Assembly (NCBI GenBank): GCA_918797485.1
Contig: CAKKNE010000002.1
Coordinates: forward strand, 5,360,501 to 5,424,500
DNA length: 64,000 nucleotides
Origin: Pelagomonas calceolata
Taxonomy: Eukaryota > Sar > Pelagophyceae > Pelagomonadales > Pelagomonadaceae
Direction: 5' to 3'
In this document: positions 27,160-63,201 of the stretch, in pieces
How positions within the stretch are numbered: position 1 is the stretch's first letter
How the letters are laid out: every line of letters begins with the position of its first letter
Made by a program: the position numbers and the translations under genes
Notes under the pieces: model-generated
The model's input: only the letters and a program-made list of their open reading frames with translations
What the model was told of the DNA's origin: nothing
Database searches by the model: none

Positions 27160-27179
27160 CTAGCGTAGTGAGACACTAG
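27160..27179 (+). promoter_or_regulatory. GCTAGCG...GACACTAG promoter motif
   Basis: CTAGCGTAGTGAGACACTAG, about 190 bp upstream of the ankyrin gene start at 27367. Confidence 0.6.
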
Positions 27180-27366
27180 AATCCGCAGTGCTGAGAGCAC
27201 CGTGCCCAAACGCAATATACGTGTGCCACTGGCAAGGCAGGCTTCGTGCCGCTCTCACAGCCGTCTGCGCCGATAGAGCGAAACGCTGGCGCGCGGGATG
27301 CCGGAGGTCTAGCTGAGACCCGAGGCTGATCAGCTGACGCTGGGCGGCGCTGTCCACGACAGAATC

Positions 27367-28059
27367 ATGGAGTCGGAGGATGACGGCGAGCGGCCGGGCC
27401 CAATACACGACGCTGCCATCGAATGCGACGTTGAAGCGTTACGAAGCGAGCTCGCGCGGGGCGTGTCGGCGAATCAACGCATCCCAGGCAATGACAACAC
27501 GCCCCTCCATTGGCTCTGCTATAGCGACAAGGCCGACTGGGCGATAGGCGGAGCAGAGTGCTTCCACGTGCTCCTGGCCGCAGGAGCCGATATCAACGCA
27601 GCTTGCGACATCTTTGGTGACACGCCGCTATCCGTGGCAGCTTGTAGAGTGCACCCCAGCTTACAACTGCTCCTCGAGGCAGGGGCTGACGTGAACTTGA
27701 GGCCCCCCGATCAACTTGAGGGCGGCCCCTGGAATTTAACGGCCCTGGAGAAGGTAATTATGTGCCGCGGGTACGGAGCTCGCCGTCGCCGCGCCTACCC
27801 AATTCTTCTCCGTGCGGGCTCTGAACTCCCCACGGCTCAATTCATGCAAGGCGAGCGCGACCGCCTCGGCAATGGGAATGGACAGGGCGTCTTCAGTGAG
27901 CCTTACATTGAGAAGGTGATAACCGCCGGCAGCCTCGCGAACTACGAACGCCTTCACCTTACGAAGCTCACTAGCATGTTCCAGCCGAAGTTCCCGTTTC
28001 TGCCGAAGGAAGTCATCCAGCGCGTCGTCGAATTCTGGTCTCACGCGGGTGATTACTAG
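27367..28059 (+). CDS. Ankyrin-repeat protein
   Basis: 230 codons. At least three ankyrin repeats are visible (residues about 12-45, 46-85 and 88-125), with T-P-L-H-W-L-C, A-G-A-D-I-N-A and G-D-T-P-L-S-V-A-A motifs. The C-terminal 35 residues (F-P-F-L-P-K-E-V-I-Q-R-V-V-E-F-W) form a conserved-looking helical end. Ankyrin repeats mediate protein binding; no catalytic domain is present. The gene sits in the spacer of the inverted repeat and has its own upstream promoter motif. Confidence 0.8.
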   Translation: MESEDDGERPGPIHDAAIECDVEALRSELARGVSANQRIPGNDNTPLHWLCYSDKADWAIGGAECFHVLLAAGADINAACDIFGDTPLSVAACRVHPSLQLLLEAGADVNLRPPDQLEGGPWNLTALEKVIMCRGYGARRRRAYPILLRAGSELPTAQFMQGERDRLGNGNGQGVFSEPYIEKVITAGSLANYERLHLTKLTSMFQPKFPFLPKEVIQRVVEFWSHAGDY

Positions 28060-28104
28060 TCACGGTACCTAGGGGCGCGCGCGTAACGTGTTGTTCTTGT
28101 ATTC

Positions 28105-28440
28105 GATATCTGAGTGCTGAGGACTAACTAGCTCGCGAATCGCGCGCGTCGCCGGAGTGCTGAGGACTAGCTGCCAACCGAAAACGCCAAAACTGTCACA
28201 TGCGCGGAAGCCGCCTCGGGCTCGTCGTGACTTTGTATTGCGCTATCTGAGTGCTGAGGACTAGCTAGCCCGCGGGACGCGTGTCACCAGAGTGCTGAGG
28301 ACTAGCTAGCAACCGAACAGAAGATCGAACAAAAACCGTAGAAAACCCGCACGATAGAATTCATTGCTCTATCTGAGTGCTGAGGACTAGCTAGCGAGCT
28401 GGACACGGCGTCGCTGGAGTGCTGAGGACTTGCTAGCCAA
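28105..28440. repeat. Tandem repeat block of GAGTGCTGAGGACTAGCTAGC
   Basis: Six copies of the 21-mer occur at 28112, 28155, 28249, 28290, 28373 and 28416. They pair up into three larger units of about 130 bases, each beginning CTATCTGAGTGCTGAGG and ending CTAGC-AACCGAA or similar. Fragments of the inverted-repeat inner edge (CCTCGGGCTCGTCGTGACTTTG) are also repeated here. The block abuts the inner end of the right arm. Confidence 0.85.
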
Positions 28441-28448
28441 CCCAAAAC

Positions 28449-29421
28449 GCAAAAAATTCTCGCGCGCGCGGAAGCCGGCGGCGCCCCCCTCGGGCTCGTC
28501 GTGACTTTGTCGCCCGCTCCGGCGCTGGTGGTTGCCGCGCCTCGGCGGCCTTGGGTTCGGCTCGACGCTGCTGATTCTGCGGCTCTTAGATATATAACTG
28601 TTGTTGCTTTTACGATCGCGCCGGTGGGCCCTTCGTCTTGTGCGCCTAGCCCCATGGCTTGTCCTCGCGTTGGCGGGTGATCTAGACGCCTCCCACGTCA
28701 CTCTGCGTCCCAAGATAGGACCCTCGGTTGACCGTGTGCGTTTCGTCCGCGGAATCCTGCCTTTGATGAAATTGGGGCGCGTGGACGGAGTGGGGTCGTA
28801 CAGCCACCATAGGGGTCCTACCTCGCCCCAAGCCAGCGTCAAAGCGCGGTCCGAGGGTCCGAGCACCCAGGGAGCAAAAAAAGAAGAGCCGCTAGCGAGT
28901 ATGGGCCGAACGTTTCCACGTGAATGGAACACCGCGCTGACAGAAAATCCTGTTAGAGCTTTTACCGCTGCGCCAAGTTTGTGACTTCGTAGCGCACACA
29001 TTCCATAAAAGCTTGTATTGCAACTGTAGGTTTCGATCCTACGACCTGTACCCGGTAGCTTTACCTACCAGTGGGTCGATCAATGCGACTCTTGATTTTT
29101 TGTTTGTTTTTTGCCTCTAGTACCGGGTTACAGGAAAACCCGAGGCGCGGCGGCGATGGCCGGCGCCAATTAGGGCCCTCGGAGCGAACAGATGGCGTCC
29201 CACTACCGCGACGCGGCAAAATGCCTCAAAGCGGTCGACGGCGGCCGCACCACGCTGAAGACGGCAGCCTACAAGACGCAGAACCCGCCGAGGACCGTGG
29301 CGCTCGTCTCCGAGGTGCGCCGGCATCGCAAGGCGTTGGAAACGGCCATCGCGGCGACGGGCCTGCGGGAGAAGGCCGGCGGCGACGCGCAGCTGCTGCT
29401 CGTGGCGGTCTACGACGCCGT
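28449..29421. repeat. Right arm of the ~1 kb inverted duplication
   Basis: Reverse complement of 24927-25914. From the inner edge it holds the last codons and stop of the small gene seen at 25859, a spacer with the mirrored tRNA-like boxes, and the first 230 bases of the intact NSUN5 gene. Confidence 0.85.
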
Positions 29422-30500
29422 CGCCGGCCGCGGCGCGCCGAAGCGCTGCGGCGGCAAGCTGCTGCGCGCGATCCGGGAGGTGTTGTGCGGCGCGCAAATC
29501 AACCAATCGTCGCGGCGATGGCGTGCTGGTGGCGGATTCGAGAGGTGGTGAGAGTCAGCGCGGTGATACGAGACGCGCGCAGGCGCTGCCCGCGCTCAAG
29601 AGCACCTTCGAGGCCGCGCGCACGGAGTCGCCTTCAAGAACCGAAAACAAACCGCGCTACCTGCGCTGCAACCTGTTGACGACGACACGAAAAGAAGTGA
29701 GGGAGAAGCTCGCGGCCGAGGGCGTCGCCGCGGAGGACGACGTGCATGTCGACGACCTCCTCGTCACGACCGCCAAGGTCCACGGCGGCCACGCCCTGGT
29801 CAAGGCCGGCGAGGTCATCCTGCAGGACAAGTCGAGCTGCTTCCCCGCGCACGCGCTCTTAGACGGCCTGCCGCCGGACTGGCGTGGCGATGTTGTGGAT
29901 GCGTGCGCCGCGCCGGGCAACAAGTCGACGCACGCCGCGGCATTACTACGGGGCCGCGGCAAGGTGTTGGCCGTCGACCGCGACGCGGCGCGGCTGAAGA
30001 TCCTCGAGGAGCGCGTGCGCGAGGCGAAGGCCGATAATGTGGTCCAAGCGGTCCGGGGCGACTTTTTAAAGTTGCGCCACGGCGGCGCGCGGGCGATCCT
30101 CGTGGACCCGTCGTGCTCGGGCGGGTTCGAGGGCGAGGCGGCGTCGGACGAGCGCGTGGCGCGGCTCGCCGAGTTCCAGAGCAAAGCATTACGAGCTGCG
30201 CTGATGCGGTTCCCGCGCGCCGAGCGCGTGTCCTACTCGACGTGCTCGCTGCGCGCCGAAGAGGACGAGGCCGTCGTGGCCGGCGCGCTCGCGGACGCGG
30301 ACATAAGGAAGGGCGGCTGGCGCCTCGCGCCGGCGCTGCCGGCGTGGCCGCGGCGCGGCCGGCCCCACGCGGGCCTGGATCGGGCGCAGAGCGACTGCCT
30401 CGCGCGCGCCGATCCATCAAAGGACGCGACGGGCGCGTTCTTCGTCGCGCTCTTCGAGCGGTCCGCCGGTGCGGCGCGGAAGCGGCGGCGGCGGGGGTAA
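29192..30500 (+). CDS. NSUN5: NSUN5-type rRNA cytosine-C5 methyltransferase
   Basis: Two exons, 29192-29479 and 29583-30500, give 401 codons. Exon 1 encodes the NSUN5-type N-terminal helical region (Y-R-D-A-A-K-C-L then T-T-L-K-T-A-A-Y-K-T-Q). Exon 2 carries the SAM-binding motif D-A-C-A-A-P-G-N-K, the D-P-S-C-S-G motif with one catalytic cysteine, and Y-S-T-C-S-L with the second. NSUN5 methylates a cytosine of large-subunit rRNA in the nucleolus or cytosol. The basic R-K-R-R-R-R tail fits RNA binding or nuclear targeting. The first 230 bases lie inside the inverted-repeat arm; the gene itself looks intact. Confidence 0.85.
29480..29582 (+). mobile_element. Intron of NSUN5, degenerate introner-like
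   Basis: Phase-0 GT-AG intron of 103 nt. GTGTTGTGCGGCGCGCAAATC at its start resembles the CTGTGCGGAAATC introner end, but the 3' end (GAGACGCGCGCAG) is not the usual TIR. Splicing joins A-I-R-E to A-L-P-A-L-K as expected for the family. Confidence 0.5.
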
Positions 30501-30563: not shown

Positions 30564-30585
30564 GCTAGTATGTTACTGACGCTAG
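30564..30585 (-). promoter_or_regulatory. GCTAGCG promoter motif (reverse orientation)
   Basis: CTAGCGTCAGTAACATACTAGC read on the - strand, about 310 bp upstream of the Ran start codon. Confidence 0.5.
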
Positions 30586-30896
30586 TTACAAAATTGAGCG
30601 CGAGTCGAAAAAGAGGACAGCGCAGCGCTCGGCGAGGCGCGAGCTGCAAGCGAGAAGCACAGGCAAGTCCCAGCGTCGAAGCCACGGAATCCTGCGCCGC
30701 AAGCGCCGCAGCGCGCGAGGCGGAGACAGCGAAGATAAAAAAGAGAGGCCCAAAACTCGCCTTTCACCTACAGCCCGCCGCGCCGCGCCGCGCGCACCAC
30801 GAGAGAACCCCAAGAACGCCACGCAACCCATCACGCCCGAAACGCCGTAGGTCATCGAGCAAGGAAAGCCGGCGGGCGTCGACGCTTTCAGCAACC

Positions 30897-31532: not shown

Positions 31533-32132
31533 AGGGACGTGTCGCGGGTCTAAGGTGCTTCTTCGTTGCTCTTTCTTTGGGGGGGTGCTGCCGTCGCGCG
31601 TCGCAGCACTGTCGCCGTGGGTCGCGGCGACGGCGTAGGGGCGGCGTCGATGGCGTCGGGGTGCTAGGACTAGTGGGCGGAGCCCCTGGGCTGGGGTTGG
31701 AGACACCGCGCGTCGCCGATTCAGCGGCGGCGGGCGCGTGCCGCGTTTTTCATAATAGCATACCTCCTTCTAAGCAGAACCGCCTCGGCAAACCCCTCCG
31801 AACAATGTGCAAGGGGGGGCACGTCTGGGCGCGGCCGCGGGCTCCGAGGGAGGCCCGGCGCCGCGCGCGACCTACGCCGTACCCCGGGGTAGCGGCGACG
31901 CGTGGGGGGCTCCGCCCACTATTCTCGGGATACGCCCGGGCGCCGCGCTTGCTTGCGGCTCGCCGCCGCCTCGCGATTAACGAGGGAGAGGCAGTGCCGC
32001 CGCGCGGGCCGTACATACGCTAGAATCAACGCCGATGGCCCCGGGCAGCCCCCCCAGGCCTTTGGTGTAAGCGCCGAGGCAGCCCCGGCGCGAGGGGCCC
32101 GCCCCCCGCCCCCAGAGCAACCACAAGCAACC
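31533..32132. other. Ran / IQ-protein intergenic region
   Basis: About 600 GC-rich bases without a convincing gene. AGTGGGCGGAGCCCC at 31672-31686 and its exact reverse complement at 31906-31920 form a 15-bp inverted pair 220 bases apart. Part of it (GGACTAGTGGGCGG) reappears at 47288-47301 on the other strand. Confidence 0.5.
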
Positions 32133-36182: not shown

Positions 36183-36208
36183 GCTAGTGTCTTACATGTG
36201 CGCTAGCG
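36183..36208 (-). promoter_or_regulatory. GCTAGCG promoter motif (reverse orientation)
   Basis: CTAGTGTCTTAC and GCGCTAGCG at 36183-36208, about 190 bp upstream of the GMD start. Confidence 0.65.
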
Positions 36209-36393: not shown

Positions 36394-37485
36394 ATGGCTG
36401 CACCAGTCGCCGCCAACGCGAAAGTAGCCCTGATCACGGGCATCACGGGCCAGGACGGCAGCTACCTCGCCGAGCTTTTATTGGACAAGGGCTACACGGT
36501 CCACGGCATCATCCGCCGCAGTTCGTCGTTCAACACGGGCCGCATCGAGCACCTCTACAAGGACCAGCACGAGAAGCAGGTGAAGCTCTTCCTGCACTAC
36601 GGCGACCTCACCGATAGCTCGAACCTCTTCCACATCATCTCGACGGTGCGGCCGGCGGAAGTGTATAACTTAGGAGCCATGTCGCACGTCAAGGTCTCGT
36701 TCGAGATGTCCGAGTACACGGCCGAGGCCGACGGCGTGGGTACCTTGCGTCTGTTGAACGCCATCCGCAGCGCGGGCCTCGAGAAGTCGACGCGCCTCTA
36801 CCAGGCGTCGACGTCCGAGCTCTACGGCAAGGTCCAGGAGATCCCGCAGAAAGAAACGACGCCCTTCTACCCGCGGTCGCCCTACGGCGTCGCCAAGCAG
36901 TACGCCTACTGGATGCTCATTAACTATAGAGAGGCCTACGGCATGCACCTCACGAACGGCATCCTCTTCAACCACGAGTCGCCGCGCCGCGGCCCGACGT
37001 TCGTGACCCGCAAGATCACGCGCGCCGTGGCGCGCATCTCGCAGGGCAAGATGAAGACCTTGTATCTGGGCAACCTCGACGCCAAGCGCGACTGGGGCCA
37101 CGCGCGCGACTACGTCGAGGGCATGTGGCTCATGGTGCAGCGCGACGAGCCCGACGACTTCGTGCTCTCGACGGGCGAGTGCCACTCGGTCAAAGAGTTC
37201 TGCGAGGTCGCCTTCGCGCGCGTCGGCATCACGGTGCAGTGGAAGGGCGAGGCCGGCTCGGTCGACGAGATCGGCGTCGACGCCAAGGACCCGAACCGCG
37301 TCCTCGTCAAGGTCGACCCCAAGTACTTCCGCCCGACGGAGGTCGACCTGCTCGTCGGCGACTGCTCAAAGGCCAAGAAGCTGCTGGGCTGGACGCCCAA
37401 GGTCACCTTCAAGGCGCTCGCCGAGGAGATGGTCGACGCCGACCTCGCCGAGCTCCGCCGCGAGATCGCCCAGGAGGGCCAGTGA
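36394..37485 (+). CDS. GMD: GDP-mannose 4,6-dehydratase
   Basis: 363 residues, full length for the family. N-terminal Rossmann motif G-I-T-G-Q-D-G-S-Y, followed by [11 protein letters not shown]. The catalytic set is visible: T/S within S-T-S-E-L-Y-G-K and Y-x-x-x-K in [24 protein letters not shown] and Y-F-R-P-T-E-V are all standard for GMD. It converts GDP-mannose to the 4-keto-6-deoxy intermediate on the way to GDP-fucose, in the cytosol. The last 38 coding bases and the 3' flank are tandemly duplicated just downstream. Confidence 0.97.
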
Positions 37486-37665
37486 ATGTGTCCGCCGTCG
37501 CATAACTCCCCTTGTGTCCGCAATTACTTAGCGCCGGGGGTACTAGCGGCGGACCTCGAGAGCCGAGCTCCGCCGCGAGATCGCCCAGGAGGGCCAGTGA
37601 GTGTGTCCGCCGTCGCATAACTTCTCCCTTGTGTCCGCAAATTTATGACTTAGAGGTACTAGTGG
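37448..37665 (+). repeat. Tandem duplication of the GMD 3' end
   Basis: The stretch starting CCGAGCTCCGCCGCGAGATC at 37448 (last codons, stop and 3' flank of GMD) is repeated from 37563, 115 bases later. Both copies keep the stop context GGCCAGTGA, then TGTGTCCGCCGTCGCATAACT, then GTACTAG. The second copy is downstream of the true stop, so it duplicates the 3' UTR and probably the polyadenylation region. Confidence 0.85.
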
Positions 37666-38956: not shown

Positions 38957-38980
38957 GCTAGCGTCCTGTAAGGCACTAGC
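38957..38980 (+). promoter_or_regulatory. GCTAGCG promoter motif
   Basis: GCTAGCG and GTAAGGCACTAGC separated by four bases, about 150 bp upstream of the RlmN-like start. Confidence 0.65.
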
Positions 38981-41508: not shown

Positions 41509-43188
41509 TTATGAAGCGACTACCCCACCAGGATCAACATCAGTCGTCGGCCGCTCGCGCGCGTCGTCGAGGAAGACGAGGTCGCGGGCCTCCCACGTCG
41601 TGGGCGGGACCTCGACACCGTGGTCCGCGCCCCTTTCCGGCTCCAGCGGCCGGCGCTTCACCAGGCGCGCGCGGTACGCGTCGTCGAGGAGCGCGCGGAC
41701 GCCGTCGAAAAATAGGGCGCCATCGTCCTCGCGCGGAGGCGGTATCGTGACGGGCGGGGGCGGCGGGTCGGGCCGCATCGTGTCGGACCGCGGCGGCCGG
41801 TAGACGTCGTAGATCCCGTCGGCCCAGAACCGCGCCTCGTCCTTGGAAATCGTGGCGATGCGCGCCGGCTTGAAGGCAGGGTCCGGCGCGAAGAGCTTTT
41901 TGGCGAGGCGGGCCGCGCGCTCGGCCTCGGCGCCGCGCGTCGGCTGGAGCGGCCGCCGCGTCGCGAAGCCGAGCCCTTCGCTGCCGAAGTCACGGCCGCT
42001 TGCCCTGGCCTTGATGGATTCGCTATCGTACGCCCTTGCCGAGTCGCGGCACGCGCGGAACGACGCGAGGTAGCGCCTCCGGTACTCGCGCCGCGTCGCC
42101 CGCCCGGCCGTCGGCGCGACGCGGAACCGCGTCCCAGACGGAGCATTCGGCAACGCGGGCGGCTTGAAGGCCGGCGGTGGTCGCGCGGTGATCGCCTTCG
42201 GCGACGCGAAGCGCGGCGAAGGGTGTTTCTTGCGGTCGAGGGGCGTCGCCACGAGGTGCTGGGGTCGCATTGATATTCCGCCCGGCGCTTTATGCGTCGC
42301 GTTATACGCATGCGCGGTGTCGTAGGCGGGCCCAGGGCTCTCGCCGACCGCCTGCCGTGCTGCTAGCACCGCGGCGGCGCCAGGCAGCGGTGTCTCGTGG
42401 GACGCACCGGGCAAAGAAACGCTATGCGTCTCGGCGACGCTGGCGAGGAAGCTCGGCATGGCGTCCACGCCCGGGCCCGGCCCGTCAGACTCTCCGGCGA
42501 AGGCGCCGCCCCTCTTCTCGCGGCCGAGGGCCCCGCCCACTTGTGACAGCGGCGTCGTTGTGTCGTAGGCGCCCGCGCCGGGCGTCCACTTCTGCTCCTC
42601 GATCTTGGCCTCGCTGAAGCTTTTCAGGCCCTCTCGTCCAACCAGAGTTGCCTTCGGCGCCAACGACGGGACGTAGGTGTCGTATGCTGCCGGCCCCGGA
42701 CCCACAGCATCTCTTTGCGCCTCGATTTCGTCCGCATGGAATCTCGAGGCGGTCGATGCCAGCTTGTTTTGCCGCCAGACGGCCCGCTGGCTCGCGTCCG
42801 CGGCACGGACGTCGTGGGCGCCGGGGCCCGGGCCGTCTTTTATGGAGAAGAGGTCCGCGCCGCGGCCGCCGAAGGTGGCCCCGCTCGGTTTAGGCGGGTT
42901 CAGAATGCGCGAACCCTTGCCCTCGACGAGGTCGAGCGCGTCAGCCGCCCGGTACGCGTCGGCGGTGCGGCCGGGCGACGTGCCGTCGTTCGGCGCCGGC
43001 CGCGGCGCCTTCCCGGTAAACCGGCCGCCGGGGGGCGATCTCGGTTGCTCTTTGTACGACTGCGGCGAGGGCTCCGCCGACCCCTTCTGGAGGCGCCGCG
43101 CCAGTTCCTTGTCGCGCCCGAGGCTCTTGGCATCGTGGAGCTGAGAGAGCCGCCGCAGCGCGCGCGGCTTTGTGGGGGCCGCCGTCAT
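41509..43188 (-). CDS. Sperm-tail PG-rich repeat (SHIPPO-type) flagellar protein
   Basis: 559 residues with at least five P-G-P/A-G-x-Y/H-D repeats (G-P-G-P-G-A-H-D, G-P-G-P-A-A-Y-D-T, P-G-A-G-A-Y-D-T, G-P-G-P-G-V-D, S-P-G-P-A-Y-D-T) in the first 300 residues, spaced 45-60 residues apart. Such proteins bind axonemal microtubules, often as inner-lumen proteins. The C-terminal half is basic and proline-rich without a known domain. This is evidence that the organism has a flagellated stage or retains flagellar genes. Confidence 0.8.
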   Translation of the reverse strand: MTAAPTKPRALRRLSQLHDAKSLGRDKELARRLQKGSAEPSPQSYKEQPRSPPGGRFTGKAPRPAPNDGTSPGRTADAYRAADALDLVEGKGSRILNPPKPSGATFGGRGADLFSIKDGPGPGAHDVRAADASQRAVWRQNKLASTASRFHADEIEAQRDAVGPGPAAYDTYVPSLAPKATLVGREGLKSFSEAKIEEQKWTPGAGAYDTTTPLSQVGGALGREKRGGAFAGESDGPGPGVDAMPSFLASVAETHSVSLPGASHETPLPGAAAVLAARQAVGESPGPAYDTAHAYNATHKAPGGISMRPQHLVATPLDRKKHPSPRFASPKAITARPPPAFKPPALPNAPSGTRFRVAPTAGRATRREYRRRYLASFRACRDSARAYDSESIKARASGRDFGSEGLGFATRRPLQPTRGAEAERAARLAKKLFAPDPAFKPARIATISKDEARFWADGIYDVYRPPRSDTMRPDPPPPPVTIPPPREDDGALFFDGVRALLDDAYRARLVKRRPLEPERGADHGVEVPPTTWEARDLVFLDDARERPTTDVDPGGVVAS

Positions 43189-43366: not shown

Positions 43367-43388
43367 GCTAGTACCTCACGCCGCTAGC
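43367..43388 (-). promoter_or_regulatory. GCTAGCG motif in a divergent promoter
   Basis: GCTAGCGGCGTGAGGTACTAGC read on the - strand at 43367-43388 (22 bases as GCTAGCG, 2-3 nt, GTGAGGTACTAGC). It lies between the divergent starts at 43188 (179 bp) and 43561 (173 bp), almost exactly central. Confidence 0.65.
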
Positions 43389-43560
43389 AAGCGCTCGGAT
43401 AATCGCGTGTCCAGGCTAATACGAGGGGCTTAGCGAGTCGTGCGTAGTTTTGCAGGCTACCGGCAGCGTACACAGTGCATCAGCTGCTGGTCGGGCCGGC
43501 GGCGGCGCCAAACCTCGGCAAAAAACCGACTCAGCATCGAAAAGCTTTCCAAGAGCCGAC

Positions 43561-44952
43561 ATGCGCGCAGCGCTCGCCCTAGCGCTCTGCGCGATCCACG
43601 CTGTCAGCGAGAGAGATGAACACGGGATGCGCCAAGCCCTTCGCCTGGCGCGGATGAGAGCGCCGCGCGAGAGGCGCAGCCCGGGCGCGGGCCGGGCGCA
43701 AGGCCGGACAGGAGGAATGAGGGACTTCTACGGCGGCGCGAACCGCACGCGGCTCTGGCCCCGCACAAAGCACCTCCAACCGCTCCTGCCAACAGTCCCG
43801 ACGGAGCACCTCTGGGCCGGCGGCTGCTGCGGTTTGGGCCATCGCACGTCGCGATTGATGCGCTTGTATGTGTACGCCGTGTCGCGCGGGCGCCATGTCG
43901 TCGCGGACTGGGGCGCTTGTGTGGGTACGCCCGTGGCGAACCTCTTCTCAGCGCTGTTCGGCGACTGGAACGAGCTAAGAGCTGTCAAACCGCGCGAGAA
44001 TCAATTAAGGAACCCGGGCTGCCCCTCGGGTGTTTGTCCCACTGGAAACGCGTTCAAGGAGGCCGCCAAGGCGAGAAGGTCGTTCTTCCCGAACGAGCCG
44101 CCCGAAGACTGGCAGCCGCCCGGCACGCGCGTCGAGAGCAAGCACCCCTCGAAAACGCTGTGGCAGGGCGAGTGGGGCCTCTTCAACCTCCATTCTGATA
44201 TATTTAAGTACGCGGAGCATTTTGCTGCATCTATGGTGAAGGCGCTGCGGCCGGAGATCAAGGAACGACTGGATGAATTTATACAAAAAGAGTTCAGTCC
44301 GCGGGGTAGAAGAAGAACGCGCATCATCGGCGTGCATTTTCGCTTCGGGAACGGCGAGAAATTTGGTAGAAGACCGGCCAATTCGACACATGTGGTGCTG
44401 AGGACGGCGGCGGCCGTCGAAAGGGTGGCCGCAGCATTGGGCTACGAGAACGTGCGAGTGCTCGTCGCGACGGACGACGCGAGCGCGCTCGATACGCTAA
44501 GAAAGCATACGAAGCTCGACGTCTTCGCGCGGCCGCAGTGGCGGCCACCGCCCGGCGCCGGCATCGTCTTTTCGAGTTGGCGCACGAAGGACCATTTGGA
44601 TGACAAGATCAAGGAGGCGACGGAGGCCGCGCATAGGTCTGTGGTCAAAGACGCCAATACCTGTGTGGGCGCGGCCGCCGACATGCTCATCGACTCGCTG
44701 CTGCTGGGCTACGCCGACGCGCTGGTCTTGCCCGTGCCCTCGACGTTCACGATCCTCCCGAAGGTCATGGCGCACTCGCGCGGCGCGCCGTCCTGCATGT
44801 TTATTGGAGAGACGTGGCGGGACCTGAACATCAAGAAGCGGGATCTGGAGCTGACGTGCGTCCGCCGCGACCGCGCGGGCCGCGCGTCAACCTCCCGTTT
44901 GACGGTGCCGCCGCAGGGCCGGGCGGACTGGCTCGGCGCGCGCTTCTGGTGA
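43561..44952 (+). CDS. Putative secretory fucosyltransferase-like protein
   Basis: 463 residues starting with a signal peptide (M-R-A-A-L-A-L-A-L-C-A-I-H-A-V-S). G-V-H-F-R-F-G-N-G-E near residue 265 resembles the nucleotide-sugar-binding H-x-R-x-G/T-D motif of NodZ/O-fucosyltransferase-like enzymes. It is followed by V-R-V-L-V-A-T-D-D-A-S, D-V-F, and a late D-x-L-L-L-G-Y-A-D-A-L-V ... S-T-F-T, the usual order in that fold. Assignment to the fucosyltransferase superfamily is by motif order only. The nearby GMD gene supplies the GDP-fucose precursor, which supports but does not prove it. Confidence 0.6.
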   Translation: MRAALALALCAIHAVSERDEHGMRQALRLARMRAPRERRSPGAGRAQGRTGGMRDFYGGANRTRLWPRTKHLQPLLPTVPTEHLWAGGCCGLGHRTSRLMRLYVYAVSRGRHVVADWGACVGTPVANLFSALFGDWNELRAVKPRENQLRNPGCPSGVCPTGNAFKEAAKARRSFFPNEPPEDWQPPGTRVESKHPSKTLWQGEWGLFNLHSDIFKYAEHFAASMVKALRPEIKERLDEFIQKEFSPRGRRRTRIIGVHFRFGNGEKFGRRPANSTHVVLRTAAAVERVAAALGYENVRVLVATDDASALDTLRKHTKLDVFARPQWRPPPGAGIVFSSWRTKDHLDDKIKEATEAAHRSVVKDANTCVGAAADMLIDSLLLGYADALVLPVPSTFTILPKVMAHSRGAPSCMFIGETWRDLNIKKRDLELTCVRRDRAGRASTSRLTVPPQGRADWLGARFW

Positions 44953-46781: not shown

Positions 46782-46803
46782 GCTAGTGGTGTCGACACAC
46801 TAG
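46782..46803. promoter_or_regulatory. Degenerate GCTAGCG-type palindrome in a divergent promoter
   Basis: GCTAGTGGTGTCGACA then CACTAG, almost perfectly palindromic around GTCGAC. It lies 60 bp upstream of the AP2 protein start and 160 bp upstream of the small protein at 46962. Confidence 0.45.
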
Positions 46804-46961
46804 AGGTGCAAAGCAGCAAGCGCAACAAAGGCAAAAAGCAGCACCGCTGGGGGCTTGGGCGCGTAACTGAGGTCATCCGTTAACACATTGTGACCGTCCC
46901 GCCGAATACTGGGCAAGCGGGACCGCGCTGCGCCATCTGCCGACCGGACGCGCCGCACCTC

Positions 46962-47258: not shown

Positions 47259-47271
47259 AACTGTAATTAAT

Positions 47272-48627
47272 CTATCTTATTCTCTCCTTCGATGGAACCC
47301 CGCCCACTAGTCCTATGAGTAGCACCAGTAAACAACAACTTCCGCTAACACATCCAGGGCCGTCCTCGTGGTCAACCGAGTAGAAATCAGCAGAGCCCCC
47401 GCGCCTCGAGCATCTCCAGGACGCGGAACGCCGCGTCGGGGTCCTCGGGCGCGGCCGGCGGCGGCGGCGGCGCCTGCGCCCGGGAAGCGTCAACGACGCG
47501 GTACGACGGGAGGGACGCGGCATACAAACAGGGGCGGCCGGCGGCGGCGGGCGGATCGGGGCGAGGACCGGCGGCGGCGGCGGCGGCGCGAAGGCGTTGC
47601 GCCGCGCGAGCGCGCCGCCCAGCAGGTCTGCGAGCGAGGCCCCCGCCGCGGGCGGCGGCGGCGGCGGCGGCGCGACGGGCGGCGCGACGGGCGGCGCCGG
47701 CACGTAGCCGTACAGGGGCGCGGGGGCGCCCCCGCCGTAGAACGGCGCGGGCGGGCCCCGGGGCGATCCTCGCTGCCCGCCGCCGCGGCCGCGCCGGCGG
47801 CGGCGGCCACCGCCGCGCGGCGGCATCTGCTGCATCGGCATCGGCATCATCGGCATCGGCATCATTCCGGGTGGGCCGAAGCCGTGCGGCGGCATCATCG
47901 GCATCGGCATGGGCATCGGCGCCGGGGCGGGCGGCGACGGCGCGCGGCGCCGCTTCCGCGGCAGGCGCGCGGCGGCCGGCGGCGCGACGGCGACGGCGCC
48001 CTCCTCCGAGAAGCCCGACTGCCGAGAAGCCGCGAGGTCCGCGCGCGCCGAGTCCCCGGGAGCCTCGTCGTCGGACGAGAACTCCGCGCCGGCGAACTCG
48101 TCTCCACCAGCAAAGTCGTCGACCACAACAGCGGCGCCGCGCAGCCCGCGCCGCCGCCGCCGTATCATGCCGACGTCGAACGGCGCGCGGACCTCGCGGA
48201 CGTGCGCCACGCAGCGGAACGCGTTCGTGGAAACGGGCGCCGCCGACGCCGGGCGGCAGCCTCTACAAAAACCCCGCGGGCAGCGCACGCAGCGCACGGC
48301 GTCGCCGTCCCGGTCGTCGAGCACGCGCCCGCACGCGCCGCACGCGTGCGCGCCGCACGTCCAGTCTTCATTACTTGGTTTGCATTTTGTGCAGAGGACG
48401 CGCGCGCAGCCCGGCGCGGCGCACTTTATGGTCTCCTCGACGGGCTGGTAGACCTGGCAGGACGCGCATCTAGCTGCATTGACGGCGCACGGGGCGCACG
48501 TCCATCTTATTTGATCGGCGGCCGCGCCGACGCAGGCCGCGTGGAAGTCATTATGGCACCTTGTACAGCGGACGCTTGCCTCGCCGACGCAGGAGACCTC
48601 GCACTCGGGGCAGATGCCGGCGACCAT
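47272..48627 (-). CDS. PHD-type zinc finger protein
   Basis: 451 codons. Residues 5-48 form a PHD finger (C-x2-C ... C-x2-C ... H-x2-C ... C-x2-C). Two more cysteine-rich modules follow at about 52-90 and 92-140 (C-x2-C, C-x2-C pairs and C-x2-H), like an extended PHD. An acidic patch, then Pro/Met-rich and Arg/Gly-rich low-complexity segments fill the rest. PHD fingers read histone tails. The last 60 codons look non-conserved and the true C-terminus may differ. The opposite strand is open for 489 codons, but only as a mirror of this biased sequence. Confidence 0.8.
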   Translation of the reverse strand: MVAGICPECEVSCVGEASVRCTRCHNDFHAACVGAAADQIRWTCAPCAVNAARCASCQVYQPVEETIKCAAPGCARVLCTKCKPSNEDWTCGAHACGACGRVLDDRDGDAVRCVRCPRGFCRGCRPASAAPVSTNAFRCVAHVREVRAPFDVGMIRRRRRGLRGAAVVVDDFAGGDEFAGAEFSSDDEAPGDSARADLAASRQSGFSEEGAVAVAPPAAARLPRKRRRAPSPPAPAPMPMPMPMMPPHGFGPPGMMPMPMMPMPMQQMPPRGGGRRRRRGRGGGQRGSPRGPPAPFYGGGAPAPLYGYVPAPPVAPPVAPPPPPPPAAGASLADLLGGALARRNAFAPPPPPPVLAPIRPPPPAAPVCMPRPSRRTASLTLPGRRRRRRRRPRPRTPTRRSASWRCSRRGGSADFYSVDHEDGPGCVSGSCCLLVLLIGLVGGVPSKERIR

Positions 48628-48832: not shown

Positions 48833-48857
48833 CCTAGTGTCTTACTGGACGCTAGCG
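48833..48857 (-). promoter_or_regulatory. GCTAGCG promoter motif (reverse orientation)
   Basis: CTAGTGTCTTAC then CGCTAGCG across 48833-48857, about 206 bp upstream of the PHD protein start. Confidence 0.65.
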
Positions 48858-49005: not shown

Positions 49006-50130
49006 TCACATAACGACGCCGCCGCGCGCAAACCCCTCGCGCGCCGCGGCACGCGTGCGCGGGCCGGCCGGGTGCGCGACGGGCGTCGGCCGTGGGACCC
49101 CGCTCGGCCACGCGCGCGCGTCGAGGTCGAGCATCCAGGCGTAGGGCGTCGGCCGCAGCGCCGCCGCGATGGCGGCGGCCGCGGCGGGCCCGACGCGGCC
49201 GGCGAGGTCCGCGTGCCGCCGCGACGCCGCGCGGTGGCTGTGGCGCGCCTCGCAGGGCGGCGGCGGCGCGGAAGGCGCGGCCGCGGCCCACGCGCGGGCC
49301 ACGGCGCCGCAGGGGTGGGCGATGACGTCCTCGTCAAAGTCGAGCTCGAGGACGGTCATCCCGTTTGCACGCATGGCGTCCACGCCCGCTTTAAGTGTTG
49401 CCGCCTCCCACTCGATCGTGCGGAGCGGGTCCGCGAAGAAGGCCGCCGCCCGCCGCGCGACGCGCGGCCGTGCCCTTCCCGCGAACTCGTCGTCCGTCGC
49501 CGCGCGCCACTCGCGCACGCCTGTGTGGAAATCAAATTTCGGGCGCCCCAATAGGTTCACGAAGGTCCACGATAGCCTAACTCACTGGTGATTTCCACAC
49601 AGGCGCACGCGGTTCTCGAAGCTGGACACGAGGCGCGCGAGGTGGTTCTGGCGCTCAATAACTATAACTGTGTTGAAGCCCGCCGCCGCCAGCGCGTCCG
49701 CGAGCGCGGCCGGAGTGGAGAGGCTCGCGAGCGGCCCGCCGAGGTGCTGCGGCTTGATGTGCGTCAGCGCCGCCTTGCTCCTCCGTTTGGCTTTGCCGAC
49801 GCACGCGCGCAGCGCGGCCGCCGAGAGGCCGCCGAGCGCGAAGCCCTCCTTGCGGCCGCGGCAATAACTGAAGTTGCCGGCGGCTTTCAACGAGTCCGCG
49901 AACGTGCCCGTCGCGCATCGTCCCAAAGCCCAGAGCGCCACGGAGCCCGTGTTGCCATTCCTACGGCTCGCCTGCTCCGTGGCGAGGGCCGCGGCGAGGT
50001 CGCCGTAGCCCGGGCGCATGCGGGCCTTCTCGGCGCGCCGGGCGAGCTCGGCGTCGTCGAGCCCGCGGAACGTCTGCGCCACGGCCGGCGCGAGGGCGCA
50101 CCAGCACGCGACGAGCCTTGCTGTTCGCAT
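49006..50130 (-). CDS. Sulfotransferase-like secretory protein with an introner
   Basis: Exons 50130-49611 and 49520-49006 join to 344 residues. I chose the start at 50130 because M-R-T-A-R-L-V-A-C-W-C-A-L-A-P-A-V-A-Q is a good signal peptide and the promoter motif lies 177 bp upstream. C-A-T-G-T-F-A-D-S-L-K resembles a 5'-phosphosulfate loop. V-I-V-I-E-R-Q-N-H-L-A-R-L-V-S-S resembles the 3'-phosphate-binding R...S motif of sulfotransferases of the Stf0-like type. The family call is moderate: motifs fit, overall similarity is not checked. Confidence 0.55.
49521..49610 (-). mobile_element. Best-preserved introner: exact TIRs and exact 8-bp target duplication
   Basis: On the + strand the element runs 49521-49602, CTGTGTGGAAATC...GATTTCCACACAG, a perfect 13-bp terminal inverted repeat. 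It is flanked by GCGCACGC on both sides (49513-49520 and 49603-49610). On the coding (-) strand the intron begins with GC of the duplicated GCGTGCGC and ends with the element's CAG. Phase 1 matches, and splicing restores N-R-V-R-E-W exactly. The element is only 82 bp. Confidence 0.85.
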
Positions 50131-50306
50131 GCGGCAGCTTTTTGCACGGCTGGTGGCACCTGATGATGGCAGCAAGCCACACGAGTGCTCCAGGCGAGCG
50201 TTGACGTCGTCAGCCTTAAACGCGGCTCTGACGCCTCTATTTGCCGAGCGCTGCCGTGCAGTAAATCGCCGGCACGCGTCTAGCATTATATTTTGTGAAA
50301 ACCTCA

Positions 50307-50330
50307 GCTAGCGGCAAGTAAGACACTAGC
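50307..50330 (+). promoter_or_regulatory. GCTAGCG promoter motif
   Basis: GCTAGCG, four bases, GTAAGACACTAGC. It lies 177 bp upstream of the chosen start of the sulfotransferase-like gene on the - strand. Confidence 0.7.
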
Positions 50331-51920
50331 AAGCAAACTCGGAACGCGCATGCCGTCGTTCGAGTATCCTTCAGTTCGCTAATAGTCCAAAGAGATCAAT
50401 GGGACACGTATTGGCGCTCGAAAAAGGAAATTTTTTAATTCGCGGTGCGGAGGCGACGAGGCCACATGCCAGCCACGCCGGTTTAATCCTGTCAATCCCT
50501 GCCAAACAGGTCTCCCTGGGGTCGCCTAGGGTCGGTATTATACACGTGCAAGCGCCTACGCCGCATACGCCACCGCTTCAAGCATTTTTGGCCGATTTCT
50601 CTCAGCCAGACATCGGGCCAGAGCACAAGTCCCCAAGGTTTGCTTCCAGAGCTCTCCGAGAGCACTAGGCCGCCGCATCGATGGCGTATGCGGTACAGGC
50701 GACTACCCACTACCAGACCTACCCCGAGAGACCGCCAGGAGCCGATCTACATCCGAAAAAAGTGTGCAAGTTGGACCCGATGGCGCCCCGTTCCCGTCAA
50801 AAACGTCAATTACCCGAGGCCCCCCAGTAGTCGCCGTAGCGGTCTCGTCGGACCCCATACTACCCCAGCGATAGTCAATTACAAATATATGACATCTACA
50901 CCGCGAGAAGGGTACTTTTGGCTGCCCACGCTCGGGACGTGAACATCTTGATCTGGAGCTCGCGCAAGTCGGTCGGTCATGAAACAAATGATCGCTTCAT
51001 GGTCCATGGTGAAGGTACACGGGCTGATAGTGGCAGGTTCATGTATTAAGTCCAAATTGGCGAGATAATGGAGTCCCGCGGTGGACGAGCCGCCGGGAGC
51101 TTCCGGAACGAAATATGTAATGTAGTACACGCTCAGGCCAGTTAGCTGGCCCGTCCCATAACCGAAGCGCCTGAAACGAAATTTTATTTTATAACTTACC
51201 GATCTGGGGCCTTTCTGGTGCTCCGTCTCCGCACCGTCGTCCGCGGAGAACGGGCAAGTCGGTCGATTGTGAATAGAACAACGGCGTTATGGTCCATCTG
51301 GGTAGTGACGTCGCTGATACTCGCAGATCTGGAGTCTGTGCCAGAATAGGGGAAACGTGGGGTCGCGAAGACGACGAATCGCGAGGCTCTAACGGAGCAT
51401 CTTAAATAGATGAGTGCGCGTTCAGGCGGCCTAAATGGAATCTACCACTAACAAACGGATAAAAACGAACATAAACTCGGGAGTTGTCTAGTAGAATTCT
51501 TTTCCCGCCCTCCGAGCGCGCGCAGTCGGCTCCGGTTCCGTCTATCATGTATGAAAACTGGGCTGGAGTTGATATGATGTACCATTTAGACGGTAGATGG
51601 CGGCGTCAATCGCTGGTCTACTTTGGAAACTCGTAAGACTCATCCGCGAATGTCGCGGGCGGTGCCTTCCGGGAGGCGCGAGGGTATGTTCCCGGGCCGC
51701 TACTCTGAAGTATTTGGGCGCGGCGAACGACAAGGATATATTCTGAATTTGGGTCATTCTTTTGACGCTATCGCAGCGTATCTTTGAATTTGCTAGTATG
51801 TCGATATACGCTAGCTCGGTTTGGCTCTTCTTTGTATAACGTGGGGGCCCGGAGCAGAATAATCTCGCACCTTGGTACATGAGATATCTTAGGTCTATCA
51901 CAAGGAAACACACCACAACT
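50331..51920. other. Gene-poor, AT-richer region
   Basis: About 1.6 kb without a convincing intact gene and with lower GC than its neighbours. It contains a decayed duplicated coding module at 50960-51360 (separate entry), short frames that end quickly on both strands, and a copy of the dispersed CATCGATGGCGTATGCGG word near 50677. Confidence 0.5.
50930..51365 (-). pseudogene. Two decayed copies of an unknown coding module
   Basis: On the - strand two segments about 285 bases apart (near 50965-51040 and 51250-51330) read as related peptides: one with T-M-D-H-E-A-I-I-C-F-M-T-D-R-L-A-R-A-P, the other with Q-M-D-H-N-A-V-V-L-F-T-I-D-R-L-A-R-S-P. The shared M-D-H-x-A and D-R-L-A-R-x-P positions at different DNA bases suggest past selection on protein. 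Neither copy sits in a long frame. Family unknown. Confidence 0.35.
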
Positions 51921-53184: not shown

Positions 53185-53207
53185 GCTAGCGACCAGTAAG
53201 ACACTAG
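53185..53207 (+). promoter_or_regulatory. GCTAGCG motif in a divergent promoter
   Basis: GCTAGCG, four bases, GTAAGACACTAG. It lies between divergent starts at 53075 (110 bp) and 53347 (140 bp). Confidence 0.7.
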
Positions 53208-53346
53208 AAATCGACGTCGACGTCCACGCGACTCTCCAGGCCTGGCTCATCGTGATAAGGCATCGCTCGGGCACAGAACGAGTTGTGAGAACTCGCAGCA
53301 GCCTCGTGCAGGGACACACCCACACAAGGCATCCCTACGACAAAAT

Positions 53347-57029: not shown

Positions 57030-57052
57030 GCTAGCGGCTGTAAGACACTAGC
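57030..57052 (+). promoter_or_regulatory. GCTAGCG promoter motif
   Basis: GCTAGCG, three bases, GTAAGACACTAGC, about 195 bp upstream of the uS17 start. Confidence 0.7.
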
Positions 57053-57600: not shown

Positions 57601-57601
57601 G

Positions 57602-58801: not shown

Positions 58802-58823
58802 GCTAGCGTAAAGAAGCACTTAA
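58802..58823 (+). promoter_or_regulatory. Degenerate GCTAGCG motif in a divergent promoter
   Basis: GCTAGCG, four bases, AGAAGCACTTA: half the motif is intact. It lies between divergent starts at 58726 (76 bp) and 59057 (234 bp). Confidence 0.4.
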
Positions 58824-60496: not shown

Positions 60497-60507
60497 AGAA
60501 AGAATTT

Positions 60508-60530
60508 GCTAGCGTTATGTAACACACTAC
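60508..60530 (+). promoter_or_regulatory. GCTAGCG promoter motif
   Basis: GCTAGCG, three bases, TGTAACACACTAC, about 200 bp upstream of the Mpv17-family start. Confidence 0.6.
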
Positions 60531-60726
60531 CGAACCCTGTCAGACATTGTTGCCATTGCAGACCTGACTGGCTGATCCCTGAAGCACATACAGTTCGTTT
60601 AGCAAACGCCCAGCAAGTCTTCGTCAATCACTTGTGCCTGCTGGTGCCCCGCTGCAGCTCTGAAGTCGTCACTGCTGCTTGACCACCTGTGCCAGCTGCA
60701 GCTCCGCAGCCACAGACGTTGCAGCC

Positions 60727-61395
60727 ATGCCGCGAGCAACAACAACCGCGCTGCTGGCCTTTACATTGGCGCCGGGCGTCGAGCCCTTCGTCGTTCCTAC
60801 AGGGAGACGAAGGCCGCCGCTGCGTATGGAAGCCGGCCCGGCCGAGCTCTGGAGCGGCTACCTCGCGGCGTTGGAAGCGGACCCGCTCCCCGTGAAGATG
60901 GCCACGGCGGCGTGCGTCATCGGCGCGGGCGACGCGACGGCGCAGCTCATCGAGAACGAAAGAAAAAAGTTGCCGGACGCGGCGCGCGTCGCGCGCTGGG
61001 CCTTTTTTGGGTTGGTGCTCCAGGCGCCGTGGAACCACGTCTGGCAGAACGTGCTGGAAGGCGCGCTGCCGGCGACGGCCTCGCCCTGGACCGCCGTAAC
61101 TTTCGAGAAGGTCGCGCTCGACCAGGGCCTCCAGGCGCCGGCCTTCACTGCATTGGTATTCTTCTTCTTCGCGGCGCTCGAGGGTGCGGGTTTACGGGGA
61201 GGCGTCGCCGCGTGCGAGCGGGACCTCGCGCCGACGATTCTCAAAAATTGGCTCGTATTCGTCCCGGCGACGTTCATCAATCTAGGCTTCGTGCCGCTGG
61301 AACTGCGGGTCCTCTTCATCAACGTGGTCTTCTTCTTCTGGGTCATCTTCCTCTCGCTGCTCATCAACAACGACGAGGCGAGTAAACAAGTCTAA
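60727..61395 (+). CDS. Mpv17/PMP22-family membrane protein
   Basis: 222 residues from the ATG at 60727. After a 35-residue leader the family pattern follows: W-x-x-Y-L-x-A-L-E-A-D-P-L-x-x-K, G-A-G-D-A-T-A-Q, D-Q-G-L-Q-A-P, then N-W-L-V-F-V-P-A-T-F-I-N-L-G-F-V-P-L-E-L-R-V and a final hydrophobic helix. About four membrane segments. Members sit in peroxisomal, mitochondrial or plastid membranes. The leader (T-L-A-P-G-V-E-P-F) could be a plastid or mitochondrial signal. Confidence 0.85.
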   Translation: MPRATTTALLAFTLAPGVEPFVVPTGRRRPPLRMEAGPAELWSGYLAALEADPLPVKMATAACVIGAGDATAQLIENERKKLPDAARVARWAFFGLVLQAPWNHVWQNVLEGALPATASPWTAVTFEKVALDQGLQAPAFTALVFFFFAALEGAGLRGGVAACERDLAPTILKNWLVFVPATFINLGFVPLELRVLFINVVFFFWVIFLSLLINNDEASKQV

Positions 61396-61401
61396 AAAAC
61401 A

Positions 61402-62962
61402 TTAACACACGACGCACTCCTCCTTGGGCCCGGCTACAGGCCGCAGGAGCGGCGCCGGCGGCGGCCGGCCCGCGTCCAGCGCCGCGTAGGCGGCTCCGGA
61501 GGCGTCGTCGCGCGCGGCTGGTCGCGGCGCCGCGGCGGCGGCCCGGGTGCCCAGGCCGTGCGTGAGCACCTTCTCGAGGAGCTCGCCCGTCTGCCAGTTT
61601 TCCTCGTCGACCTGTGTGGAAATCAACCAGTGAGTTAGGTTGCGAAACTCCGTGTCGGTGGCGTGGAAACTCCACGCCATCGCGCAGATGCAGTGACAGG
61701 AACAGGCGGGGCGCCTGAAATTCGATTTCCACACAGGCTGGGACGGCGGGCACCTCGAGGGGGCGCGACCGTAATGATGGAGGGGACTCCCGGAGCTCAC
61801 CTGCGTCGCGTTGAGATCATGATTCTGCCGTATGCGAGAAGCGCCGCGAAATTTGATCGTGCGCTGAAGCTCGCCGTCGACGGCGCACACACAAGACACG
61901 GCGAAGCGGTACGTCGTCGCGGGCGCGAGGCCGTGGACAAGCGTCGACGGGCGCGGCGGCGGCGGCAGGTTGAGGTGCCGGCGCAGCGCCACGCCGCGGT
62001 CGACGGCCTCGTTCGCGCAGAAGTCGCGCCGCGGCGGCCGGCGGCCGGCGCCGGGCGCGCGCGCGGCCTGCGTCGATGCGTGTTGTGCGGGAGTCCTCGG
62101 ACAAACAGCACGCCAGACCAGTGGGCTCAGCCACTGCGACAGAAGGACGAAGACAAAAACTAACAGGACGCAGGAAACAGACCCCGACGGCGAACTCGAC
62201 GGTCGCGTCAGCATTTGTGCTGCCGCCGGCGACGGCGCGCCCGCGGACGACGTACCGCTCGACCGGCCCGACGCCCGGCGCGGGCGGCGGCGGCCGCCAG
62301 CGGACCTCCACCACCCTCTCGCGCGCGTCGCCCTCGACGTACTCGGACAGCTTCGCCTCCACCCTCAACGGCGACCGCGGCAACAATTTGGGCGGCGCGG
62401 CGAGGAGCTCGCGCATGGCCTCGCGCTCGGCGGCCGTGTGCCGGCCCGGCGGCGCCTCGACCTCCGTTGGGGCGGCGGCCCCCGCGCGCAGCAGCAGGCG
62501 CGCGCTCGCGGCGTCTCCACACAACACCGCGCCGGCGAGCGGCGCCGGCCTTTCGTCGCCCGTCGCCGGCTCGGCCCCGGCCGCGAGCAGCAGCTCGACG
62601 CACCGCGCGAAGCCACCGGGCGCGTCGGGCTCGGGCCGCCTTCTATACGCCTGCGCCGCGCCCGGCCCACCCGCCAAAGCGCAGCCCGCGGCGAGATGAA
62701 GTAAACTCCAGCCCATGTGATGCAGCCGCGACGTCGCCGCCGGGTCGCCTCCATTTTCAAGGTAGGCCGCGAGCGCGCGCGCGTCGCCGTGCTCCGCCGC
62801 CTCGAGCGCGTCCTGCGTCGACGGCGCGATCCGCCGCGGCGGCGCGGTTGGTGGAGGCTCCTCCGTCGTCGCGGACGCGCGCATGCGTTGCGCGTCGGGC
62901 GACGCGTTGTCGCGGAGCCGGTCCGGTGGGGTTTCGTCGATGAGCTCGCTGAGGGATTGCAT
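61402..62962 (-). CDS. Ankyrin-repeat and fibronectin III protein
   Basis: Three exons, 62962-62183, 62067-61801 and 61611-61402, all phase 0, give 418 residues. Residues about 50-165 carry ankyrin repeats (A-L-E-A-A-E-H-G-D-A-R-A-L, W-S-L-L-H-L-A-A, C-V-E-L-L-L-A-A-G-A-E, A-S-A-R-L-L-L-R-A-G-A). Residues about 205-320 form an FN3 domain (E-V-R-W-R-P-P, V-E-R-Y-V-V-R-G, L-A-P-A-T-T-Y-R-F-A-V) split by the first intron. The protein ends E-E-C-V-V-C, two cysteines near the C-terminus that could be lipidated. The last intron is introner-derived. It converges on the Mpv17 gene with a 6-base gap. Confidence 0.7.
61612..61800 (-). mobile_element. Intron with an introner at its 3' end
   Basis: On the coding strand the intron starts with a textbook CAG|GTGAGC at 61800. 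It ends with the CACACAG of an introner whose TIRs (CTGTGTGGAAATC and GATTTCCACACAG, perfect 13 bp) span 61612-61736. The flanking octamers differ. This looks like an introner inserted in or next to a pre-existing intron, which then took over its 3' splice site. Confidence 0.7.
62068..62182 (-). other. Ordinary GT-AG intron of the ankyrin-FN3 gene
   Basis: Phase-0 intron GTCTGTTTCC...ATCGACGCAG, 115 nt, with a CTGTTTGTCC pyrimidine-rich inner part. It interrupts the FN3 domain. No introner termini are seen. Confidence 0.6.
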
Positions 62963-63178
62963 GGCTGCTTATTTTTGACGATGTCGAGCTAGAGTATCAC
63001 CGCCCGACGGCTTATTATTTGATAGCCCTGGACCAGGGCAGCAGTGAGTGGGCAGTAGAGCTATTTCGACCGCGTAAAAATTGCCGTAGGGCTCGTGTCG
63101 CGTTGTGAAGAGCTCCAGAACGCACGCGTATCAACCCTTATGGCTGGGGGCCGACAAAAGCTGTTGGCGCAGGCACTA

Positions 63179-63201
63179 GCTAGCGGCAGTAAGATACTAG
63201 C
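63179..63201 (+). promoter_or_regulatory. GCTAGCG motif in a divergent promoter
   Basis: GCTAGCG, three bases, GTAAGATACTAGC. It lies between divergent starts at 62962 (217 bp) and 63298 (97 bp). Confidence 0.7.

Follow-up and report, generated by a model that had tools for sequence, protein, structure and literature searches.

A two-part inverted-repeat motif at gene starts of Pelagomonas calceolata, putative site of an abundant promoter factor

What is the two-part, near-palindromic word that recurs between the genes of a 64,000-base stretch of the Pelagomonas calceolata genome (C2:5360501-5424500, GC 63%; this whole stretch is called the window below)? A first-pass annotation had listed 13 occurrences of the word in the window, and had proposed that it might be the main core-promoter or nucleosome-phasing element of the genome, or else the binding site of an abundant factor. 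The word turns out to be a genome-wide motif that lies mainly at gene starts, usually in one copy per promoter and without preferred orientation, and it is best read as the putative site of an abundant protein that would open promoters in either direction.

Abundance and anatomy of the motif

The source genome comprises 32,445,274 bases in 8 contigs. In the accessible part of the published description, the genome of P. calceolata RCC100 consists of six nuclear contigs (32.4 Mb in total), one plastid contig, and one mitochondrial contig, with 63% GC, 16,667 genes, and 0.45 intron per gene (PMC9481584). Typically eukaryotic domains (RRM, RING, AP2, and WW) are among the Pfam matches in the window. 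Genome-wide, the exact motif has 1,292 copies (659 and 633 on the two strands) and a relaxed form has 2,998, against 0 of either in the backward control, which confirms that the motif recurs; scaling puts all sites in the genome at an estimated 4,000-5,900. In the window, the exact two-part form is found three times (0.00 in shuffles), and the right half by itself, allowing 2 mismatches at most, ten times (0.58 expected).

Sites were scored with a gapped weight matrix trained on the window, eight loci of 3 kb, and 200 kb of contig 1. Strong sites are those with 25 bits or more; the standard cut-off for counting is 18 bits, and one of 20 bits was used for the analysis of a CpG-poor band (see following). 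The window and the 200 kb together (264 kb) contain 53 sites of at least 18 bits and the reversed control contains none, the matrix having been trained on these same sites; at 10 bits or more the numbers are 61 and 2. The scarcity of sites between 10 and 18 bits indicates that the motif is a discrete object and not a compositional bias.

In structure the motif is a bipartite inverted repeat of the form GCTAGCG, 2-5 nt, GTAAGACACTAGC, with a total span of 22-25 bp. Its arms read GCTAGYG, and a GTAAGA box adjoins one arm only, so that the near-palindrome has polarity. Among the 59 strong sites (28 on the plus strand, 31 on the minus strand), the left-hand CTAGCG and the right-hand ACTAG hardly vary, each base being kept in 56-59 sites. 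In the GTAAGA box, base 3 is A in 51 sites and G in 8, base 5 is G in 46, C in 12, and A in 1, and base 6 is A in 52 and G in 7; the base that follows is C in 52 and T in 7. The spacer measures 4 nt in 36 sites, 3 nt in 12, 2 nt in 8, and 5 nt in 3. Some residual information (0.7-0.8 bit each) extends to 1 base beyond the left end and 2 beyond the right, and past these no position carries more than 0.3 bit in 25 bases on each side of the 59 sites. A symmetric form of the motif with a spacer of 0-3 has no matches.

Placement at gene starts and conservation in a relative

Placement was analyzed in 324 kb from contigs 1-6, with coding segments called mechanically by a hexamer score that was trained on long frames and is separate from the published annotation; a gap is termed tandem when the upstream segment ends in a stop. 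The strong sites lie in divergent gaps (34), tandem gaps (19), a convergent gap (1), and intron-like gaps (4), with one more lying upstream of a plus-strand segment at a stretch edge. As the first-pass annotation had stated for the window, none lies in coding sequence: the ~238 kb called coding contain 0 of the 59, and a single match of 18.2 bits. Counted by gaps, 33 of the 61 divergent gaps have a site of at least 18 bits, as do 21 of the 65 tandem gaps, 4 of the 43 intron-like gaps, and 1 of the 49 convergent gaps. The motif is enriched at gene starts and under-represented both in coding sequence and in convergent gaps, with an odds ratio of 36 for gene-start over convergent gaps (p = 1e-8), a contrast that is favoured by the shortness of convergent gaps without a site (median 168 bp). 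Tandem gaps are of similar length without and with a site (350 and 336 bp).

At the same cut-off, 87 of 187 called gene starts have a site. The distance from site to start codon (ATG), measurable for 84 starts, has a median of 183 bp (10-90% range 97-297 bp, 5-95% range 80-327 bp), and the 75-240 bp given at first are true for 68% of them. One copy per promoter is the rule, and divergent pairs do share a single motif, there being 34 sites in 33 divergent gaps. Because divergent sites are balanced by construction (34 to 34), orientation can be judged on tandem gaps only. There, 10 sites point with the gene and 9 against it (n = 19): orientation varies, as had been noticed, the placement of the motif shows no preferred direction, and the strand bias towards transcription that a directional core-promoter element would have is not seen.

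A diverged relative is available by accident. Exact matches to the motif occur in seven stretches of bacterial genome records, and contigs of the metagenome-assembled genome (MAG) "Spirochaeta sp. MED672" (L036, L038, L039, and L047) come from a diverged Pelagomonas-like alga, with syntenic blocks mostly 80-94% identical to the P. calceolata genome. Identity is 82% over 7.8 kb in L036, 83-94% in the blocks of L039, and 82-88% in those of L038, where it is 70% around the motif. Judged by synteny, L036, L038, and L039 are mis-binned alga, and L037 is so in part. The latter, a Tara MAG contig of 8 kb, has strong matches to the P. calceolata genome only at 2043-3615 (96% and 90%) and may be chimeric. 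The motif matches in L040, L041, and L042 may be due to chance; by a rough estimate the bacterial collection should hold ~30 chance matches to 18 fixed bases, so that misses and stray hits in it are uninformative. A scan of IMG/VR with the exact motif gave 0 matches.

All four orthologous promoters read in P. calceolata contain a site (L043, 42.9 bits; L044, 37.4 bits; L045, 15.4 bits; L046, 38.8 bits), three in the same orientation as in the relative and one in the opposite orientation. Between L038 and L046, the motif is identical at 23 of 24 positions, and the adjoining 100 columns have 58 and 35 identities. Between L039 and L045, it is identical at 22 of 24 with an inserted base, and the right-hand 100 columns have 67 identities; on the left the relative is longer by ~120 bp, and this extra part matches a dispersed element. 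In L036 and L044, the site follows the same gene end in the same orientation, at 74 and 17 bp. The opposite orientation is found between another site of L039 and L043, where the distances to the next shared block are alike (213 and 191 bp). Outside this comparison, the relative has further strong sites (two in L047 and one at L039:4290) and a weak one at L039:461.

A CpG-poor band and the nature of the motif

When the 93 gene-facing arms of 61 sites are aligned on the motif edge (tandem arms including intron-like ones), CpG drops sharply at 130-160 bp from the motif. Three successive 10 bp bins there have observed/expected ratios of 0.77, 0.70, and 0.85; the values are 1.06-1.25 between this band and the motif and 1.1-1.55 on the far side, up to 480 bp. 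The ratio of the band to its flanks is 0.54 (bootstrap 0.45-0.64), and its minimum of 196 per 30 bp window lies under all 500 random-shift controls (lowest 252). CA and TG together amount to 0.16-0.18 in the band, 0.13-0.16 nearer, and at most 0.14 farther to 480 bp. At eight loci that played no part in the discovery of the band, though they were in the matrix training, CpG sums over 16 sides, gene direction being ignored, are 37 in the band, 58 before it, and 64 after it. The band is equally deep in both orientations of the motif to the gene (0.79 and 0.76) and is anchored on the motif, as genes aligned on the ATG show no comparable drop. It is absent (1.29) from the 25 sides facing away from a gene, part of which are the 3′ end of a neighbouring gene. 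The motif-aligned profile has no further bands beyond 130-160 bp, and no clear CpG or AT periodicity surrounds the motif apart from this single band. With such a profile, and with the band absent from away-facing sides, the nucleosome phasing proposed at first is no more than conjectural.

Besides the lack of further bands, two features complicate a simple reading of the band. It is weak where the ATG is less than 130 bp away (15 genes; 0.109 against 0.118 and 0.136), and some of its words are biased to the sense strand (e.g., CACTG, 18 vs. 5), a bias not expected from pure deamination. The band may mark where transcription initiates, the border of the first nucleosome, or a linker that is methylated.

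Other signals accompany the motif. TATA occurs at 15-92 bp in 17 of the 93 arms, against 9.5 ± 2.8 in a first-order null (the maximum of 300 runs being 17), and on 3 of the 25 away-facing sides, where a TA-rich zone is present as well. A TATA box was rejected as an explanation, on account of this weak enrichment and of the TA-rich zone on both kinds of side. A second promoter-linked word, GGGCAGCC, has 81 copies in the 324 kb (34 divergent, 29 coding, 10 tandem, 6 intron-like, 1 convergent, and 1 other). Of the 14 copies that lie within 400 bp on the sense side of the arms, 13 are 25-200 bp away from the motif. An open frame in the genome (L035:2177-7000) also combines DNA_methylase with SNF2 domains and is DNMT5-like. 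Linker methylation is reportedly a subject of work by Huff and Zilberman. In the pelagophyte Aureococcus, according to the accessible part of the source, DNMT5 correlates with linker methylation (PMC9998398). P. calceolata resembles that case in having a DNA_methylase/SNF2 frame of its own and a CpG-poor, CA/TG-rich band at promoters; a tie between methylation and the band would here be hypothetical.

The first-pass annotation knew of no described motif of this form, and the matches listed in searches of 5.39 million open papers include no description of it or of pelagophyte promoter signals, most subscription papers and preprints lying outside the search. An 11-letter piece of the motif has no match in the open papers searched, and other pieces of 11-12 letters gave, among the matches listed, unrelated titles. 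Sites of the yeast general regulatory factors Reb1, Abf1, and Rap1 are long, sharp, sometimes bipartite, present about once per promoter, and neutral to orientation. The Pelagomonas motif is like them in its length and sharpness, in its single copy per promoter, in its neutrality, and in its occurrence in shared divergent promoters; it has another sequence and belongs to another lineage, and its factor and the opening of chromatin are putative. The vertebrate CGCG element (TCTCGCGAGA) is, as far as the accessible text of its description goes, a palindromic, CpG-based element of 10 bp that is reported to drive divergent transcription and lies mostly within 50 bp of starts, with 7% of its copies in annotated bidirectional promoters (PMC6192621). 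Both are palindromic elements of divergent promoters (34 of 59 strong sites here, against that 7%), but identity was rejected, since the base counts of the Pelagomonas motif differ from those of the CGCG element. Among stramenopiles, a de novo search in oomycetes gave, on the accessible part of the account, the core elements INR, FPR, and DPEP, which measure 7 nt each (16 nt combined), are biased to the forward strand, and lie near the start; over-represented motifs 75-300 nt upstream are unbiased and were read as enhancers or proximal elements (PMC3599244). On that account the Pelagomonas motif, with 22-25 bp and no bias, is unlike the core elements and nearer to the upstream class. In its action it would resemble the CGCG element, from which it differs in sequence, or the site of a general regulatory factor.

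Several readings compete. A directional core-promoter element of the TATA, initiator (INR), or downstream promoter element (DPE) kind, which would fix the start site of the downstream gene, accounts for the placement at gene starts, for the constant distance of a sequence signal on the sides that face a gene, and for the excess of TATA in the arms. It fits poorly with the even split of tandem sites, with the motif common to divergent genes, with the reversed site in one of four orthologous pairs, with the breadth of the ATG distances, and with TATA and a TA-rich zone on away-facing sides. Hence the proposal of a main core-promoter element, in its classical directional sense, is disfavoured by the tandem orientations and by the many gene starts that have no copy, and we regard it as unlikely. 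Still less probable is a replication origin or an insulator/boundary site that chances to fall in promoters. A single copy per intergenic region and the lack of orientation bias would suit such a site, but convergent gaps, which a pure boundary need not avoid, are nearly empty, the CpG-poor band goes with the sides that face a gene, and the estimated number of copies seems, in our judgement, high for origins in 32 Mb.

Two further readings are very improbable, and about equally so. The motif might be a remnant or an end of a mobile element, a miniature inverted-repeat transposable element (MITE) or an introner element, that has spread into promoters. The genome does have dispersed elements of ~150 bp, and one of them adjoins the motif in L039 and is mostly missing at the P. 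calceolata ortholog, where a short end word is kept. Against this stand the lack of flank similarity past 1-2 bases, the usual single copy per gap in place of paired ends, and the presence of the motif at orthologous places in the relative. Membership in a MITE or introner family was rejected, as a homologous body or paired terminal repeats would be required, and the flanks of the 59 sites share no similarity (25 bases on each side) and 33 divergent gaps hold 34 sites. Alternatively, the motif might work in RNA as an element of the 5′ leader (a hairpin, a splice signal, or a trans-splice signal). The GTAAGA half recalls a splice donor and the arms could pair, but sense and antisense copies are nearly equal in tandem gaps, two divergent genes are served at once, and no Rfam match is found in the window. 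A link with tRNA was also rejected, with one tRNA call, of unassigned type, in 26 stretches (bacterial settings) and none in the window.

We therefore favour, with a probability of roughly 0.73, the reading of the motif as the putative DNA site of one abundant sequence-specific protein, a general promoter-opening factor in Pelagomonas that would work in either direction. Placement at gene starts, usual singleness, lack of orientation bias, and orthologous presence argue for it, as they do for that part of the first interpretation in which an abundant factor binds the motif; the CpG-poor band at a fixed distance argues for it as well. A spacer that varies from 2 to 5 nt points to two DNA-binding units with some flexibility, and the protein is probably dimeric or multi-domain. 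Such a factor would contact the two CTAG arms with some freedom of spacing, once per promoter, and would exclude nucleosomes and so keep the promoter accessible whichever way the site faces; polymerase II would then start on one or both sides. From these data we infer protein binding, chromatin opening, and transcription starts within ~150 bp on either side.

Some observations weigh against a general factor of this kind. No copy of at least 18 bits is found at 100 of the 187 called gene starts, and when genes with and without the motif are compared, as had been suggested, here by their coding score, they do not differ (p = 0.84). The four strong sites in intron-like gaps are all in the window (27159, 48833, 50307, and 51792), a placement that perhaps comes from errors in gene calling. 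The sample behind the lack of orientation bias is small (19). As to conservation, the loci of the relative were picked by the exact motif, and the comparison runs from the relative to P. calceolata only, over four promoters. The sites of L036 and L044 are not placed opposite each other by the aligner, and their distances from the shared gene end differ. In the L039/L043 pair the alignment of the flanks is poor (52 of 86 aligned bases, and 47 of 94), and loss of one site with gain of another nearby is as possible there as inversion; in both cases the position is conserved and the direction is not. A bolder proposition, that one factor acting through one 24-bp site sets about half of the genome's promoters, blind to direction and with a ruler of ~145 bp between the site and a CpG-poor boundary on the gene side, is tentative, and we lean somewhat against it.

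Sites and neighbouring features in the window, and implications

Eleven of the 13 places first listed score at least 25 bits, that at 46782 is weak, and that at 58802 falls below 10 bits and was dropped. Two sites were absent from that list, a strong one at 51792-51815 and a weak one at 50360 (11.5 bits). Five strong sites are in tandem gaps. That at 30564..30586 (minus strand, spacer 3, 28.4 bits) precedes a segment called from 30894 (+), and the long open frame there has itself an ATG at 30570; that at 36183..36207 (minus, spacer 5, 33.9 bits) precedes a gene for GDP-mannose 4,6-dehydratase (+); that at 38957..38980 (plus, spacer 4, 29.5 bits) is upstream of a minus-strand gene whose radical-SAM match is slightly under the Pfam cut-off; that at 57030..57052 (plus, spacer 3, 43.3 bits), an exact consensus, comes after a gene for a pyridine nucleotide-disulphide oxidoreductase; and that at 60508..60531 (plus, spacer 4, 33.0 bits) precedes a segment called from 60829 (+).

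Divergent gaps hold the sites at 43367..43388 (minus, spacer 2, 25.1 bits), between 41509-43188 (-) and 43450-44952 (+); at 53185..53208 (plus, spacer 4, 40.7 bits), between an RRM/hnRNP-Q-type gene (-) and a TPR/Aha1 gene (+); and at 63179..63201 (plus, spacer 3, 39.1 bits), between segments 62183-62965 (-) and 63298-63936 (+). The weak motif-like word at 46782..46804 (plus, spacer 3, 13.6 bits, under the 18-bit cut-off) is in a divergent gap too, upstream of a RING/AP2-domain gene (-). In gaps that are intron-like by the calls are the sites at 27159..27180 (plus, spacer 2, 28.1 bits), before segment 27319-27540 (+); at 48833..48856 (minus, spacer 4, 36.2 bits), upstream of gene 47272-48627 (-); at 50307..50330 (plus, spacer 4, 44.5 bits), an exact consensus upstream of open frame 49582-50286 (-); and, in the same gap as the last, at 51792..51815 (minus, spacer 4, 27.8 bits), with a variant right half.

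The site at 27159 falls in the loop (~2.5 kb) of an inverted duplication at 25000-29348, whose arms (25000-25914 and 28449-29348) are mostly 97-100% alike, with one stretch of 92%; the comparison began at 25000, and the duplication may extend further. A family of 45-nt repeats at 28100-28449 contains CTAGCTAGC-like words. The dispersed ~150 bp element, found in the window at 31661-31807 and in the relative at L039:299-455 and L039:2050-2172, has many copies on contigs 1-6, mostly 80-88% alike, and may be of introner type; the word CGCCATCGACG recurs in similar gaps. The GDP-mannose 4,6-dehydratase gene has a 61-nt duplication (37447-37507 and 37562-37622, 98%) covering its 3′ end and stop codon. 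Near the window start, an open frame of 4,741 aa at 90-14315, open towards that start and with repeated IPT/TIG domains, perhaps encodes a giant surface or secreted protein, and is followed by shorter coding segments with intron-like gaps to ~24.7 kb.

A single sharp motif at roughly half of the gene starts in the sample is a direct handle on how promoters are built in this abundant ocean alga, and it predicts an abundant DNA-binding protein. Annotators can use the motif as an aid in locating gene starts, and it could serve as a compact part for two-way promoters in work on this alga. With RNA and long-read data, the CpG-poor band at its fixed distance allows the relation between factor, start site, and CpG methylation to be tested. 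If the bolder proposition above were true, pelagophytes would have a one-protein promoter code.

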